Shown: positions 48,066 to 54,902 of the stretch, piece by piece
Numbering within the stretch: the first letter of the stretch is position 1
Layout: each line of letters opens with the position of its first letter
DNA from: Gemmatimonadaceae bacterium
GTDB lineage: Bacteria > Gemmatimonadota > Gemmatimonadetes > Gemmatimonadales > Gemmatimonadaceae
NCBI GenBank assembly: GCA_036496605.1
Contig: DASXKV010000003.1
Coordinates: 124,001 to 188,000 of the forward strand
Direction: 5' to 3'
Length of the DNA stretch: 64,000 bases
Made by a program: the position numbers and the translations under genes
The notes under the pieces: model-generated
Seen by the model: only the letters and a program-made list of their open reading frames with translations
Database searches by the model: none
Told to the model about the DNA's origin: nothing

Positions 48066-48183
48066 TCTGCTTCTCGCTGGCGCTCGGAGCCGATCTCGGT
48101 ATGACAGCAGAACCGCTTGCTACTTACACACGTTGCTTCTAGTGTCGTCTTCCTCATCTTCCTTCCCACAAACAGGACTCAGC

Positions 48184-51168
48184 ATGGTCATCCTCCGGCG
48201 ATGGCGCGTTGCATCGCTCGTGGCGCTCGCCGCGGCGATGGCGCCAGGCTTCGCGCCGCTCTCCGCCCAACAAGCGAATGACGCCGAATACACGGCGAAA
48301 ATTCGCGAGCTCACGCCCACCGATCCGAAGTGGAAATTCACGACCGAGCTCGTCGACCATCTGCCGGCATCGCCGACTGTTCCAACGCCTCTGAAAGTGC
48401 TCGGCTACGTGCCGGGTACGATCGGCAGGCTGTCGCGGACGGAAGACATCAACAAATACTTCCGCGCCGTCGCCGCGGCATCGCCGCGCGTGAGGCTCTT
48501 CTCACTCGGGATGAGCGAGGAAGGCCGCGAGATGATCGTTGCCGCGGTTGCCGATGAGAACACTATCAAGCGGCTCGACGAATACCGTGGGATGGCCGCG
48601 CGTCTCGCCGATCCGCGCGGCGAGTCGGACGCCGAGCGCGCTCGGCTGATTCGCGAAGCGAAACCGATCTATTGGCTCACGGGGACGATTCACGCGCCAG
48701 AGACGGGAAGCCCCGAGATGCTCATGGAGCTGCTGTACCGCCTCGCCGTCGAGGAGACGCCCTTCGTTCAGAAAATTCGAAACAATGTCATCACGCTGAT
48801 TACGCCGGCGACGGAAGTCGACGGCCGCAACCGGATCGTCGACATCATCGAGGAGGAAAAACAGCTCAAGCTCGGCCGCGGCGGCATTCCCACCGTGTAC
48901 TGGGGGAAGTACATCGCGCACGACAATAATCGCGATGGGCTGATGATGAGCATCAAACTCACGCAGAACATGAACACTGGGTTCCTGTTCTGGCGGCCGA
49001 CGATCATACACGATCTACACGAGTCGGTGCCGTTTCTCTATACCAGCACGGGCACCGGCCCATACAACGACGAGTTCGATCCGATCACCGTCGGGGAATG
49101 GCACACGCTCGCCTATCAGGAGATCAACGAGCTGACCAAGCGCGGGCTGCCGGGCGTCTGGACGCACGGCTTCTATGATGGCTGGGCGCCTAACTACATG
49201 CTCGGCATCGCGCAGTTTCGAAATTCGATGGGCAAGTTCTACGAGACATACACGTCCGGCGGAGCGGACTGTCAGATCGTGAACCTTCCCGGTTCGGCCA
49301 CTTCAAAAGAATGGTATCGCCCGAATCCGCCGGTGAACGGCATCAAGTGGTGCATCCGCACCAACATCAACTATCAGCAGTCGGGAGTGCTCATCGCACT
49401 CAAGTTCGTTGCCGACAATCGTGACACATTCGTCGAAGACTTTGCGCTGAAGGCGACGCGCATGGTCGAGCGCGGGAAAACCTCGGCGCCGTACGCGTTC
49501 GTCATCCCGCATGATCAGCGACACGCGGCGGAAGCAGCGGACCTCGTCGATTATTTCCGGAAGGTGGGGAGCGAGGTCCACGTTGCGTCGACGGCATTCA
49601 CGACGCGCGATATGCCCGCCGTCGTCGAGCGTGGGCTCGTGGCAGCTCCCGCCGGGACAGCGGCTGCGGGCGGAGGCGGACGCGGTGGACGGGGCGGACG
49701 CGGCGCCGACTCGAGCTCGGCGCGATCGGATAGCACGCGCTCGAGCCACCTGGTGAACGTGACCGCAGGCGATTGGATCGTCCGAATGGACCAGCCGTAC
49801 ACCGCGCTCATTCGCACGGTGCTCGCCGTGCAGAAGTTCCGCCCCGATGATCCTTCGCCTTACGACGACACCGGTTGGACCCTGGACGAGCTGCGTCACG
49901 TGACGGTGTACACGATCGCTGATTCGAGTATTCTCACCAAGCCGATGACGCTGTTGAAGACAGACGCGCACGTCGCTGGCAGCATCGCCGGTAGCGGCGG
50001 TACGCTCATCGTGAGCCATTCGGGAGACTGGCGCTCGGCAGTGCTGCCCTGGAAGGTGGGCGCGTCGAAGGTGAGCGTCGCTGATAGCGCGTTCGCAGTC
50101 TCCGGCACGAGCTATCCGGCAGGGACGTATATCGTCGACAACGACCCGACCGTGCGCGATGCAATCACGCGGCTCGGAATGAAAGCGACCGCGGTCTCCG
50201 CCTCGCCAGGCGCCCGCTCGCATGTCGTGCAGCTACCCAGGATCGCATTTGTCCACACGTGGATCGAGACTCAGAATGAAGGGTGGGTTCGTCACGCTCT
50301 GGAGGAGATGGGCGTGCCCTTCACCTACATGTCCACGCAGCGATTGAAGGACCCGGGACTTCTCGATCGGTACGATGTCGTTCTGCTCCCGCACGTGAAT
50401 GGTCCCTCCTCAGCGATGGTGAATGGGCGTCCCCTTGTCGGTCCAGCCGTGCCCTGGAAAACCACTGCGCTCACACCGAACCTCGGGAAGATCGATTCCA
50501 GCGATGACATTCGACCGGAACTCGGCCTCGAGGGACTGGCAGCCGTGCGGCGATTCGTCGAGCGCGGCGGCCTGCTTCTCGTCGAAGGGAACTCGAGCCG
50601 CTTGCCAATCGACTTTGCCCTGACGTCCGGCGTGAGCGTCGTGACGACGCAAAGACTGCTGGCTCGTGGCGCCATCTTCCGCGCCGAAGCCGTGACGCGG
50701 TCGAGCCCGATCCTCTACGGCTACGAGCGCGGCTCGATTCCCGTGTACTTCAATAGCGCGCCGTTGCTTGCCGTCGCCTCTGGTCGCGGTGGTGGTGAGG
50801 GAGGCGGAGGCGCGGGCGGAGACGAGGAGCGATCGATGTCCGTTGCGCAGAACCGTCCCGATCCGTCGATCGCCAAACAGACCGCGGCGATGCGGCCGCG
50901 CGTGATTCTGCGATTCGACCAGAACGTCGATTCGCTATTGGTGTCCGGCTTGCTCGACAACGGAAGCGAAATGGCTGGTCGCGCGGCGGTCGTCGACGCG
51001 CCGCTCGGCCAAGGTCATGTGATATTGTTCGGTATCAGGCCAATGTGGCGATACGAGACTCAGGGCAGCTACGCGATGGTGCTCAACGCGCTCGCGAACT
51101 GGAATGCGCTCGACGTGAACGAGCGGCCGCAGCACGTGGCGACGGACGGTGCGCAGAAGCACGAGTGA
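48184..51168 (+). CDS. Secreted M14-family zinc carboxypeptidase-like protein
   Basis: The 994-residue protein has a signal peptide ending LSAQQ and a peptidase M14 domain in the first half. The zinc-binding H-x-x-E is in TGTIHAPETGSPEML, and substrate/catalytic segments follow with NVITLITPATEVDGRNR and TIIHDLHESVPFLYTSTGTG. A glycine/arginine-rich linker lies near 500-520 and another near 855-875. The C-terminal part contains Rossmann-like glutamine amidotransferase/DUF segments (VVLLPHVNG, RFVERGGLLLVEGNSSR). It would act in the periplasm or outside the cell on peptides of unknown type. The SelW-like gene begins 29 bp after it. Confidence 0.87.
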   Translation: MVILRRWRVASLVALAAAMAPGFAPLSAQQANDAEYTAKIRELTPTDPKWKFTTELVDHLPASPTVPTPLKVLGYVPGTIGRLSRTEDINKYFRAVAAASPRVRLFSLGMSEEGREMIVAAVADENTIKRLDEYRGMAARLADPRGESDAERARLIREAKPIYWLTGTIHAPETGSPEMLMELLYRLAVEETPFVQKIRNNVITLITPATEVDGRNRIVDIIEEEKQLKLGRGGIPTVYWGKYIAHDNNRDGLMMSIKLTQNMNTGFLFWRPTIIHDLHESVPFLYTSTGTGPYNDEFDPITVGEWHTLAYQEINELTKRGLPGVWTHGFYDGWAPNYMLGIAQFRNSMGKFYETYTSGGADCQIVNLPGSATSKEWYRPNPPVNGIKWCIRTNINYQQSGVLIALKFVADNRDTFVEDFALKATRMVERGKTSAPYAFVIPHDQRHAAEAADLVDYFRKVGSEVHVASTAFTTRDMPAVVERGLVAAPAGTAAAGGGGRGGRGGRGADSSSARSDSTRSSHLVNVTAGDWIVRMDQPYTALIRTVLAVQKFRPDDPSPYDDTGWTLDELRHVTVYTIADSSILTKPMTLLKTDAHVAGSIAGSGGTLIVSHSGDWRSAVLPWKVGASKVSVADSAFAVSGTSYPAGTYIVDNDPTVRDAITRLGMKATAVSASPGARSHVVQLPRIAFVHTWIETQNEGWVRHALEEMGVPFTYMSTQRLKDPGLLDRYDVVLLPHVNGPSSAMVNGRPLVGPAVPWKTTALTPNLGKIDSSDDIRPELGLEGLAAVRRFVERGGLLLVEGNSSRLPIDFALTSGVSVVTTQRLLARGAIFRAEAVTRSSPILYGYERGSIPVYFNSAPLLAVASGRGGGEGGGGAGGDEERSMSVAQNRPDPSIAKQTAAMRPRVILRFDQNVDSLLVSGLLDNGSEMAGRAAVVDAPLGQGHVILFGIRPMWRYETQGSYAMVLNALANWNALDVNERPQHVATDGAQKHE

Positions 51169-51197
51169 TTTCCGCGACTTCGAATCGAACTTCACTG

Positions 51198-51425
51198 ATG
51201 ATCACGATCGAATACTGCACGGTTTGAAACTACGAACCACGCGCCGCCAGTTTGGCGGCTGACATTCGTCAGGCATTACCGAGCGAGGAGGTGAAGCTGA
51301 TTCCCTCGCGCGGCGGACGCTTCGAGGTGATTCGAGATGGCGTGCCGATCTTCGAGAAATCGAAGGTTGGTCGCCATGCGCAACCGGGTGAGGTTTTGAA
51401 AATCTTGAAGGGCAGTCAGCAGTAG
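51198..51425 (+). CDS. SelW-like (Rdx family) selenoprotein with in-frame TGA as selenocysteine
   Basis: Reading from ATG 51198 gives MITIEYCTV, then TGA at 51225-51227, then NYEPRAASLAADIRQALPS and later VKLIPSRGGRFEV, PIFEKSKVGRHAQPGEV, ending at TAG 51423. The frame is continuous across the TGA, and everything after it matches the SelW/SelT/SelH (Rdx) family, whose redox motif is CxxU or CxxC. The TGA is at the second position of this motif (C7, U10). A 7-bp stem-loop (GCCGCCA 51243-51249 with TGGCGGC 51253-51259, loop GTT) lies 15 bases after the TGA, with its loop 22 bases away, in range for a bacterial SECIS. It would be a 75-residue thioredoxin-fold redox protein. A stop-codon mutation or error is the alternative. 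Confidence 0.85.
51243..51259 (+). promoter_or_regulatory. Candidate bacterial SECIS stem-loop
   Basis: GCCGCCA (51243-51249) and TGGCGGC (51253-51259) form a perfect 7-bp stem with a GTT loop, inside the coding region and 15 bases after the TGA at 51225-51227. Bacterial SECIS elements lie directly downstream of the Sec codon with a small apical loop containing G and U. Known loops vary a lot, so the match is by position and shape. Confidence 0.6.
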
Positions 51426-51646: not shown

Positions 51647-51991
51647 ATGAAGCAACTCACGGTGACCCTGGCTTTCTTGTGTGCCGCAGCGCTTGCACCC
51701 GCTCATTGGGCGAGTGCGCAGTCGCGCGGCAAAAAGCCTCCCACTATACCGGCACAGAGTCGGCCGCCGGCCGGCATGTGTCGGATCTGGTTGGACGACG
51801 TGCCGGCTGGTCAGCAGCCTGCGCCCACGGATTGCGCAACGGCGGTGAAGAACAAGCCGCAGAACGGACGCGTGATCTTCGGTGATGACTACGCGAAGAA
51901 AAGCGACAAGGGCGACAAGAGAAAGAGTCCGCTGCCTTTCGTGAAGAGTTTTACACAACCACCGTCGCCGCCGCCGTCGCGGCGACCATGA
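51647..51991 (+). CDS. Small secreted protein with a Pro-rich, two-cysteine core
   Basis: The 114-residue protein has a signal peptide ending WASAQS (ATG 51647 preceded by GGAGAG). The core PPAGMCRIWLDDVPAGQQP followed by APTDC has two cysteines that could form a disulfide. A basic Lys-rich segment and a Pro/Arg tail complete it. No family is known to me. The pattern PPAGMCRIW...PTDC looks designed rather than random. It is followed by a strong terminator at 51994-52030, so it is a single-gene unit with its own promoter in the 221 bp upstream. Confidence 0.7.
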   Translation: MKQLTVTLAFLCAAALAPAHWASAQSRGKKPPTIPAQSRPPAGMCRIWLDDVPAGQQPAPTDCATAVKNKPQNGRVIFGDDYAKKSDKGDKRKSPLPFVKSFTQPPSPPPSRRP

Positions 51992-52058: not shown

Positions 52059-54902
52059 GTGACGCGCTCGATTCAAGATCGCTACGGTCTGCCGCCCGAT
52101 CACGATTCCTTCGTCAAATCGGAGCCGGCATCGGGGCGCGTGATCGTGATTGCACCGACTCGGGCTGCCTGCGAAACGATCGAGCTCGCGTTGGGCCTGC
52201 GCATCGAGACCTTCCTCGAGCGGCACCATGGCTCGCGTGTTCGCGGGCTGGCGAAAGGTGGCAAAGGGTTCGGGATCGTCGCGGGCACGGGGACCGGAAA
52301 GACGCTCGCCATTCGCCCGATCGCCGAAGAGATCCTGCGCACGACGGATCTGCGTGTTGGTGTGGTGAATCGCGAGCGCGAGGCGACGCCCGAAACGCCG
52401 ACGTGGAACGTGATCATCGTGACGACGGGCATCGCACGCCGGTGGTTCGAGGACGGCGACATCCTTGCGAGCGATACGCTGGTCGTGGACGAGATTCACC
52501 AGACGTCGGCGGAATTGGAGCTCTGTCTCGCGCTAGGCAAACGGGCCGGCTGCCGGTTCGTCTGGCTATCGGCGACGGTCGATCCGACCTTCTATCGTCA
52601 GTATTTGCACTCTGCCGACGTACTGGAGGTTATCGACTTCGACGCGAGCAAAGCCGCGGTGGTGCGCGTGATCGACAAGGAGCCACTGGAGTTCCTCGAC
52701 GACAAATTTCTGCAGCAAGTCGTTAGGCAACGGCGCGGGATCGCGATGTTCGTTCCGACGCGTCGTGGCGTCGAAGCGGCGGCGAAGCACGTGGAGACGA
52801 ACGCGCCGCGCGTGAACACCGCGTATTACCACGGCGGTGAACCAATCCGGATCATCCGTCCCTTTCTCGAGGGAGGGGAAAGGAAGCCGTACTTCCTGGC
52901 GATGACCGCCGCGGGGCAAAGCGCGCTGAACGTACGCGGGCTCGACACGGTCGTGATCGACGACGTGCGCTTCTTCAACGAAGTCGATCGCGGACGCAAC
53001 GTGTTGACGCAGGAGCACCTCGGCGCGAACGAGATCCTGCAGATGGCGGGACGCGTGCACGGTCGCGTCGAGGGAGGGCGGGTCTTCATACTTTCCGATC
53101 GCGATATTCAGTTCAACCAACTCCGTCCGACGGCGCCGGAATTCCAGTTGGGCGGCGATTCCGAACGCGTGGCGATCACGTGCGCGGCCATCGGCGTCCG
53201 CGCCGATGAGCTGGAACTGCCAGTCCCCCTCGACAAGCACGCGTATCGTCAAGCGCTCGCGCTCCTCGAGCGTCGTGGGATTGTCGAACGTGGCCGGCTC
53301 ACAGCGTACGGGCGCAAGGTAGAAGCGATGCCCGTCGAGCGACCGTGGGCGGAACTGCTCGTTCTCGCCGACGACGCGCTGCTTCCGTTTCTCGCGGTGA
53401 TGAGCGCGATCGAGTCGCTCCACCGCATGACACGTGAGGAACGCGACCTCGACGGCCTCGTCGTTCCAGGAAGCGATCACTTGACGTCGTACAATCTCTA
53501 CGCGGAGGCGTACGAGAGTGCCGGGTATCTCGGTGAGGTGTATGGTCTGCCGCGGCATCTGTTCGACGAGCACGCGATCGACGAGTGGGCGACACGTCGC
53601 GGTGTGCTCGTGAAATCGGTCGAGGACGCGGCGTTGGGGATGGCGAGCGTCTATCGCGCGACCGGTCTCTCGCTTCCAGCGACGATGCCAAACGCGGGCG
53701 ATGAAGAGCTCCGCGCATTTCAACAGCTGCTTGCCGAGTACATGCCGTTCGATCTGGTGATCGACGAGGAGACGGCGAACGGCGATCAGGCGCGCGTCTC
53801 CAAGACGAGCGTCTGCGGCAGTTGGGGCGCAATCGGTGGCGAGATTCGTTACTTCGCCGACAAGCTGGGAATCCCGCGCGCCTCGATCGAGGGGACGCAG
53901 ATTCCGATGGACCTGGTGCGTCGTTATGCCCGGGCTGGCGAGCCGGAGCTGGTTTTCGAGCCAGAGCGAAAAAAATCGCCGCTCGCGCTCAAGCGACGCC
54001 TCGAGTACTTCGCCTTCGATCTCGGTCGCGAGCTCGAAGCGATCGACGAATTCCCGAGCGAGTTGCGTGAACAATCGCGCGCCCTTCTCGCGGACGCGTT
54101 GGCTCGCGGCGAGGCACGGCACGTTGCGGTGAAGCGAAACCAGTCATTGATCGACGTCATTCGCGAAACCTGGCGACGCTCCGGCGGAGCGACACCGAAG
54201 CTCGGCCTGCGCGAGTTGGCCACGCTCTACGAAACGCGGCTCCGCGACGTCAACTCGATGTCGGACTTCCGGCATACGAATCTCGATCTCACCGCCGAGC
54301 TCCAGGCGCTCGTCCCGTCAGCCGTGCGTGCAGCCTACCAAGGGCTCGTGGATCGCATCGTTGTGCGCGACCGTGAAGTCGAAATCCAATATGACGTCGA
54401 AGAGGGACCCGGGGGCAACGTCGCCGTCGCACGGTTGCGCCTGCCGGAGAAGCTCGCTCGCACGCTGACGGAATCGGAGCTTCCTCAATTCGATCGGCCG
54501 CTCCGGTTCGTCGTCACGCGCGGCGCGCGCGGAGCGGCGCGCGCCGCGACGCTCGAGGCGCTGCAAGAAGAGCTCGAGCGGCCCTTCACCGAAGACGAGC
54601 TCGAGGCGATGAACCGTGCGTGGGAGGCACGGCGGGAAGAGCGCCGAGAGCGGCGGCGTCGCGAGCGGCATGGACGTGGGGAGCCCGAAGGCCACGGCGG
54701 CCGGAGCCGGCGGCAGCAGCGTCCGGGTCGCCGCGAGCGATCAGCGCAACGGGGCGAAACCACAGACTCGGCGCCTAACGAGAATGGTAAGGACAATGAG
54801 CGCCGCCGGGGACCGCGGCCACCGTATGTCGAGAGCGAACGCAACGAAGAGCCACGGCGCCGCGGTGGGCTGCGCGGCCGTCGCGGCCCGCGGTGGCGTT
54901 AG
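52059..54902 (+). CDS. DEAH-type ATP-dependent helicase with Arg/Gly-rich tail
   Basis: The 947-residue protein starts at GTG 52059. It has Walker A AGTGTGKTLAIRP, Walker B VVDEIHQTSAE (DEIH), motif III LSATVDPTFY, and a helicase C domain with QMAGRVHGRVEGGRVF. The later region (about 370-840) is family-specific and contains helicase-associated helices. The C-terminus (about 840-947) is rich in Arg, Gly and Glu (RREERRERRRRERHGRG and RRGGLRGRRGPRWR), as in RNA-binding tails. It most resembles DEAH/HrpB-like helicases that act on RNA, but its substrate is not known. The stop codon lies within the word CGTTAGG. Confidence 0.85.
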   Translation: MTRSIQDRYGLPPDHDSFVKSEPASGRVIVIAPTRAACETIELALGLRIETFLERHHGSRVRGLAKGGKGFGIVAGTGTGKTLAIRPIAEEILRTTDLRVGVVNREREATPETPTWNVIIVTTGIARRWFEDGDILASDTLVVDEIHQTSAELELCLALGKRAGCRFVWLSATVDPTFYRQYLHSADVLEVIDFDASKAAVVRVIDKEPLEFLDDKFLQQVVRQRRGIAMFVPTRRGVEAAAKHVETNAPRVNTAYYHGGEPIRIIRPFLEGGERKPYFLAMTAAGQSALNVRGLDTVVIDDVRFFNEVDRGRNVLTQEHLGANEILQMAGRVHGRVEGGRVFILSDRDIQFNQLRPTAPEFQLGGDSERVAITCAAIGVRADELELPVPLDKHAYRQALALLERRGIVERGRLTAYGRKVEAMPVERPWAELLVLADDALLPFLAVMSAIESLHRMTREERDLDGLVVPGSDHLTSYNLYAEAYESAGYLGEVYGLPRHLFDEHAIDEWATRRGVLVKSVEDAALGMASVYRATGLSLPATMPNAGDEELRAFQQLLAEYMPFDLVIDEETANGDQARVSKTSVCGSWGAIGGEIRYFADKLGIPRASIEGTQIPMDLVRRYARAGEPELVFEPERKKSPLALKRRLEYFAFDLGRELEAIDEFPSELREQSRALLADALARGEARHVAVKRNQSLIDVIRETWRRSGGATPKLGLRELATLYETRLRDVNSMSDFRHTNLDLTAELQALVPSAVRAAYQGLVDRIVVRDREVEIQYDVEEGPGGNVAVARLRLPEKLARTLTESELPQFDRPLRFVVTRGARGAARAATLEALQEELERPFTEDELEAMNRAWEARREERRERRRRERHGRGEPEGHGGRSRRQQRPGRRERSAQRGETTDSAPNENGKDNERRRGPRPPYVESERNEEPRRRGGLRGRRGPRWR

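Follow-up and report, generated by a model that had tools for sequence, protein, structure and literature searches.

A probable SelW-like selenoprotein gene with a predicted bacterial SECIS element in Gemmatimonadota

Introduction

Does a short reading frame that meets a UGA at its tenth codon encode a selenoprotein in a member of Gemmatimonadota, a little-studied phylum represented mostly by genomes of uncultured members? The question is raised by a locus in a window of 64,000 nucleotides (G000:C3:124001-188000), the whole stretch of DNA that we analysed, from a genome of 5.97 Mb assembled in 70 contigs. Among named genomes, the closest to it are metagenome-assembled genomes (MAGs) of Gemmatimonadota. 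In the plain list of open reading frames (ORFs) the frame ends at the UGA (51045..51227, 60 aa), and no ORF of at least 60 aa follows it in that frame, in line with the initial annotation, which had warned that gene finders would miss or truncate a gene of this kind. Reading the raw sequence recovered what ORF calling cuts short at codon 10. We have considered the protein family, the selenocysteine (Sec) machinery of the genome and of its relatives, the RNA hairpin behind the UGA, and the conservation of the frame.

Results

An Rdx-family protein encoded across an in-frame UGA

With TGA translated as Sec (U), positions 51198..51425 (+ strand) encode a protein of 75 residues, MITIEYCTVUNYEPRAASLAADIRQALPSEEVKLIPSRGGRFEVIRDGVPIFEKSKVGRHAQPGEVLKILKGSQQ. 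The frame consists of nine codons, the UGA at 51225..51227 (+), 65 sense codons and a TAG stop, and no obvious Shine-Dalgarno sequence precedes its ATG. The product matches the Pfam family Rdx (PF10262) over residues 2-71 of 75 with 64.2 bits (cut-off 22.6, E=1.3e-17), the NCBIfam family TIGR02174 CXXU_selWTH with 53.4 bits (cut-off 34.2), and NF041051 SelT/SelW/SelH with 88.8 bits, barely above the cut-off of 88. We assign the gene, hereafter selW, on these matches and on the contrast in same-genus identity between the gene and its flanks given below. In the motif C-T-V-U (CxxU) the UGA stands at the second redox position, and the first is Cys7, encoded by TGC at 51216..51218 (+), which is invariant in an alignment of 16 sequences and present in nearly all orthologues. 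An AlphaFold model built with 11 sequences (pLDDT 93.8; strand 2-7, helix 13-26) predicts a thioredoxin-like fold in which the loop that joins strand 1 to helix 1 carries the redox motif Cys7-Thr-Val-Sec10. Among solved structures, the Cys-type Rdx proteins 2fa8, 2obk, 2ojl, 2p0g and 3dex come closest to the model (TM ~0.8-0.92), mouse SelW being structurally more distant. The Rdx identity, the place of the TGA within CxxU and the 65 codons beyond it had all been proposed from the raw sequence, and all are borne out here. Membership of the Rdx family leads one to expect that the protein acts as a small thiol/selenol oxidoreductase.

The genome has a complete Sec apparatus

The initial annotation had reasoned that the organism must possess selA, selB, selC and selD, whose absence would speak against Sec, and had seen none of them in the window. 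All four are present in the same assembly. Profile searches of the genome place selA on contig C35 (542 bits), selB on C37 (361 bits, with 580 of 581 positions covered) and selD on C9 (377 bits). The gene for tRNA-Sec, selC (78 bits; called tRNA-SeC(tca) by ARAGORN), lies directly beside selD, and no tRNA gene was found in the window. In an assembly of 70 contigs, there is a small chance that a single contig was binned in error. At the selC/selD locus (G000:C9:6983-8093), selD is itself a selenoprotein gene: it has one in-frame UGA, read as ...ARCAGUAAKLGPGDL (motif CAGU), and it ends in a UGA stop, so that UGA carries both meanings in this genome. A second Sec client was sought in this genome in the form of formate dehydrogenase; the six FdhA-like matches were all partial, did not exceed the cut-off and contained no in-frame stop.

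UGA-SelW and selA occur together, and one relative without selA has Cys at the site

Rdx genes were found in 101 of 149 related genomes, and 100 of these 101 have the version with the in-frame TGA. Both UGA-SelW and selA are present in 93 of the 149, SelW only in seven, selA only in 15 and neither in 34, an association with a Fisher p of 3e-15 in a statistic that ignores the kinship among genomes. In this count, fragments of selA at contig ends were scored as present and one unrelated weak match as absent. The seven genomes with SelW only are incomplete or fragmented assemblies.

In genus g23, the genome G206 is a single complete contig without selA, and its SelW orthologue carries Cys (TGC) where its sisters G024, G049, G203, G230 and G244, which have selA, carry the UGA. 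The same genus contains an unexplained exception, G240, with UGA-SelW and no selA match in an assembly of 230 contigs. The near-complete genomes G018, G027, G032 and G053 have selA but no SelW, so that in them Sec probably goes into other selenoproteins. In G018 and G032 selA has a lower score (436 bits) and perhaps belongs to a different lineage.

These observations bear on which residue enters at codon 10, a point on which an open frame alone is silent: the UGA might be read by another route, such as near-cognate suppression by Trp or a recoding of UGA as Trp, with no Sec involved. We consider this highly improbable. UGA is an ordinary stop in selD and in the gene immediately upstream of selW, a Peptidase_M14 (zinc carboxypeptidase) gene at 48166..51168 (+; Pfam PF00246, 48 bits; start codon uncertain) whose UGA lies 29 nt before the selW ATG. 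The Sec apparatus is complete, and the residue found in the relative without selA is Cys, not Trp, at a position that is the redox residue of CxxC and CxxU proteins. Recoding of UGA as Trp was rejected on these grounds, and Sec is the residue that we infer for codon 10 from the gene content and the sequences compared.

The hairpin behind the UGA covaries at synonymous positions

A 7-bp stem-loop 15 bases past the TGA had also been pointed out, and it is found at 51243..51259 (+), with stem 51243-51249/51253-51259 and apical loop GUU at 51250-51252. The loop starts 22 nt after the UGA, within the range of 16-37 nt given for the apical loop of bacterial SECIS elements (bSECIS) (PMC10778597). The fold by itself proves little. 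The conserved peptide AA[S/G]LAA written in GC-rich codons is self-complementary and fixes many of the stem bases, and the folding energy in the window is modest against dinucleotide shuffles (z -1.9) and even less distinctive against synonymous shuffles (z -0.71). The hairpin might accordingly reflect nothing but the amino acid sequence Arg-Ala-Ala-Ser/Gly-Leu-Ala-Ala, and the case for a bSECIS must come from comparison between species, decisively from covariation at synonymous positions.

To describe this comparison we count positions from the U of the UGA as 0. Positions 17 and 35, 18 nt apart, are then both third codon positions, the one in the Arg codon and the other in the final Ala codon of the motif. 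In a set of 103 sequences chosen by the presence of the UGA, 17 and 35 are paired in 95, against 64.3 +- 2.8 expected from 1000 synonymous-codon permutations, none of which exceeded 75. Among the 5,355 pairs of columns their coupling is the strongest (z 24), and that of 20-32, which also joins third codon positions, the third strongest. In nine independent sister pairs both bases of 17-35 have changed and the pairing was kept; doubly changed cells number 24 against 5.5 in shuffles (0/500), and the signal is lost when the partner is slid. In 102 of 116 distinct sequences the five bases of the apex read GGUCU, AGUUU or AGUCU. The window illustrates the element imperfectly, since it lacks precisely the best covarying pair: 17-35, an eighth, lower pair at 51242-51260, is a C/U mismatch there and paired in most relatives.

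When the genome was scanned with a covariance model built on the SelW hairpin, the SelW site scored 60.4 bits and the next site 15.8 bits (E 1.2), and this model therefore reveals no further selenoproteins. The element of selD is unlike the SelW hairpin and its fold is unremarkable (z 0.87). In G206, pairs 17-35 and 23-29 are broken in the Cys orthologue, as read from its sequence, and the model score is 28.9 bits, a drop that comes partly from the absent UGA. A hairpin imposed by the peptide alone is hard to reconcile with third positions that covary, with pairing above every synonymous permutation and with the loss of pairs in the Cys orthologue, and we give that explanation very little credence. 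The comparative evidence supports instead the reading of the hairpin as a predicted bSECIS, under selection at the RNA level independently of the protein.

The frame is constrained from ATG to TAG

The UGA stands at the identical codon in more than 100 Gemmatimonadota assemblies, in a context (CxxU-NYxPRA) that is nearly constant across the orthologue translations and that recurs in other families of the class. Within the genus of the window, identity is 0.74-0.93 inside selW and 0.28-0.38 in the upstream spacer and after the TAG. Past the UGA, the two same-genus genomes retain an identity of 0.74-0.75, which at the three codon positions amounts to 0.80/0.91/0.51 (G002) and 0.80/0.92/0.54 (G001). 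This bias, together with the sharp edges of identity, indicates that selection acts on the encoded protein over the whole frame, from the ATG through the UGA to the TAG. Relatives with a normal stop and no conserved sequence behind it, which had been named as a possible refutation, are not what we observe: the UGA and the coding sequence after it are both kept. The idea that the locus is a pseudogene or a sequencing error, a Cys-type Rdx gene in which a nonsense TGA (one base from TGC and TGT, in a position where many Rdx homologues have Cys) leaves only nine residues to be made, is of negligible probability and was rejected as refuted by conservation, because more than 100 independent assemblies share the UGA at one codon, the 65 codons past it are constrained as protein, and their third positions covary for the hairpin.

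Genomic neighbourhood and additional Rdx frames

The upstream M14 gene is also found at both same-genus loci. Downstream of selW in the window lie a small ORF of 114 aa (51647..51991, +; from the ORF list), without a Pfam match, and a DEAD/DEAH-box helicase gene (52059..54902, +; Pfam PF00270). Such a helicase is the downstream neighbour in the window's genus and, within the stretches compared, occurs close to selW in 24 of 117 loci. In 88 of the 117 (e.g., L052, L123, L129) the gene directly downstream of selW has an N-terminus like that of 6-phosphofructokinase, identified by a GGDAPGLN-type motif and not by a family search, and a pfkA-like N-terminus is still directly downstream at the Cys-SelW locus of G206 (G206:C1:2896000-2899206). 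None was found beside selW in the compared stretches of the window's own genus, and for this reason we make no functional claim from the linkage.

Additional Rdx-like frames were seen in G129 and G035. In G129, the paralogue L136 (G129:C55:623-862, +) has UGA at both redox positions (IEYUAEUEYQSHAARV), scores 62.6 bits to Pfam Rdx with TGA as Cys, and has a SECIS-like hairpin after the second UGA (19.2 bits). This UxxU paralogue is the only close copy found among 395 genomes of the phylum. UxxU has been reported for a Prx-like family (PMC2398784), and we found no report in the literature of UxxU in Rdx. In G035, which also has a normal Sec SelW, the frame L138 (G035:C151:14099-14251) is divergent, with CAYU, one TGA and 29.5 bits to Rdx.

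Discussion

Our analysis indicates, with a probability of about 95%, that the locus is a functional gene for a bacterial SelW-like (Rdx) selenoprotein with a bSECIS. The evidence supports the initial annotation in every part that could be tested. In the mechanism that we propose, the hairpin behind the UGA would bind the complex of SelB, GTP and Sec-tRNA(Sec) during translation; the bound complex would cause the UGA at codon 10 to be read as selenocysteine, not as a stop; and the product would cycle through a Cys-Sec selenenylsulphide reduced by a cellular thiol system. The set of sequences puts a bSECIS to an exceptionally clean test: in a hundred species two synonymous codon positions vary together, and a natural exchange of Sec for Cys goes with a missing selA and with broken pairs in the hairpin.

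The distribution of the gene shows that SelW-like proteins and the use of selenocysteine are widespread in Gemmatimonadota. One may speculate, tentatively, that Sec-SelW, which is widespread in the class and which precedes 6-phosphofructokinase directly in most of the loci sampled from its order, is a principal client for whose sake the Sec machinery of Gemmatimonadota is retained, that loss of the machinery forces either the loss of the gene or a switch from Sec to Cys with decay of the SECIS, and that the UxxU paralogue of the G129 lineage, with Sec at both redox positions, may be a diselenide form of the Rdx fold. We found no specific report of selenoproteins or SelW in Gemmatimonadota in the literature, which is weak evidence from a search that took in few subscription papers. 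The bacterial SelW kind is already known; new are this member, its spread across the phylum and how strongly the SECIS is supported.

Mammalian SelW has a CxxU motif, and the eukaryotic SECIS sits in the 3' UTR. Mammalian SelW (2npb) and MIEN1/C17orf37 (2ljk) belong to the same superfamily as the window protein and are distant from it (18-24% identity). The Cys-type Rdx proteins 2fa8, 2obk, 2ojl, 2p0g and 3dex share its fold and the position of the redox motif, but they have CxxC, 103-108 residues and ~30-45% identity, where the window protein has CxxU and 75 residues. SelW of Epsilonproteobacteria (PMC4607533) and NF041051 SelTWH_Campy, whose cut-off the window protein only just passes, are likewise short CxxU SelW-like proteins, from another phylum, and there too annotation had missed the genes (PMC4607533). 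Closest in kind are the bacterial SelW-like CxxU selenoproteins described since 2005-2006 in the Sargasso Sea set (PMC1088965), in a survey of bacteria (PMC1794560) and in GOS (PMC2398784), which have the same Rdx fold family, the CxxU motif, a UGA-encoded Sec and, as predicted for the window, a bSECIS with G in the apical loop. That known set comes from marine samples, Deltaproteobacteria, Clostridia and others, whereas the window belongs to Gemmatimonadota.
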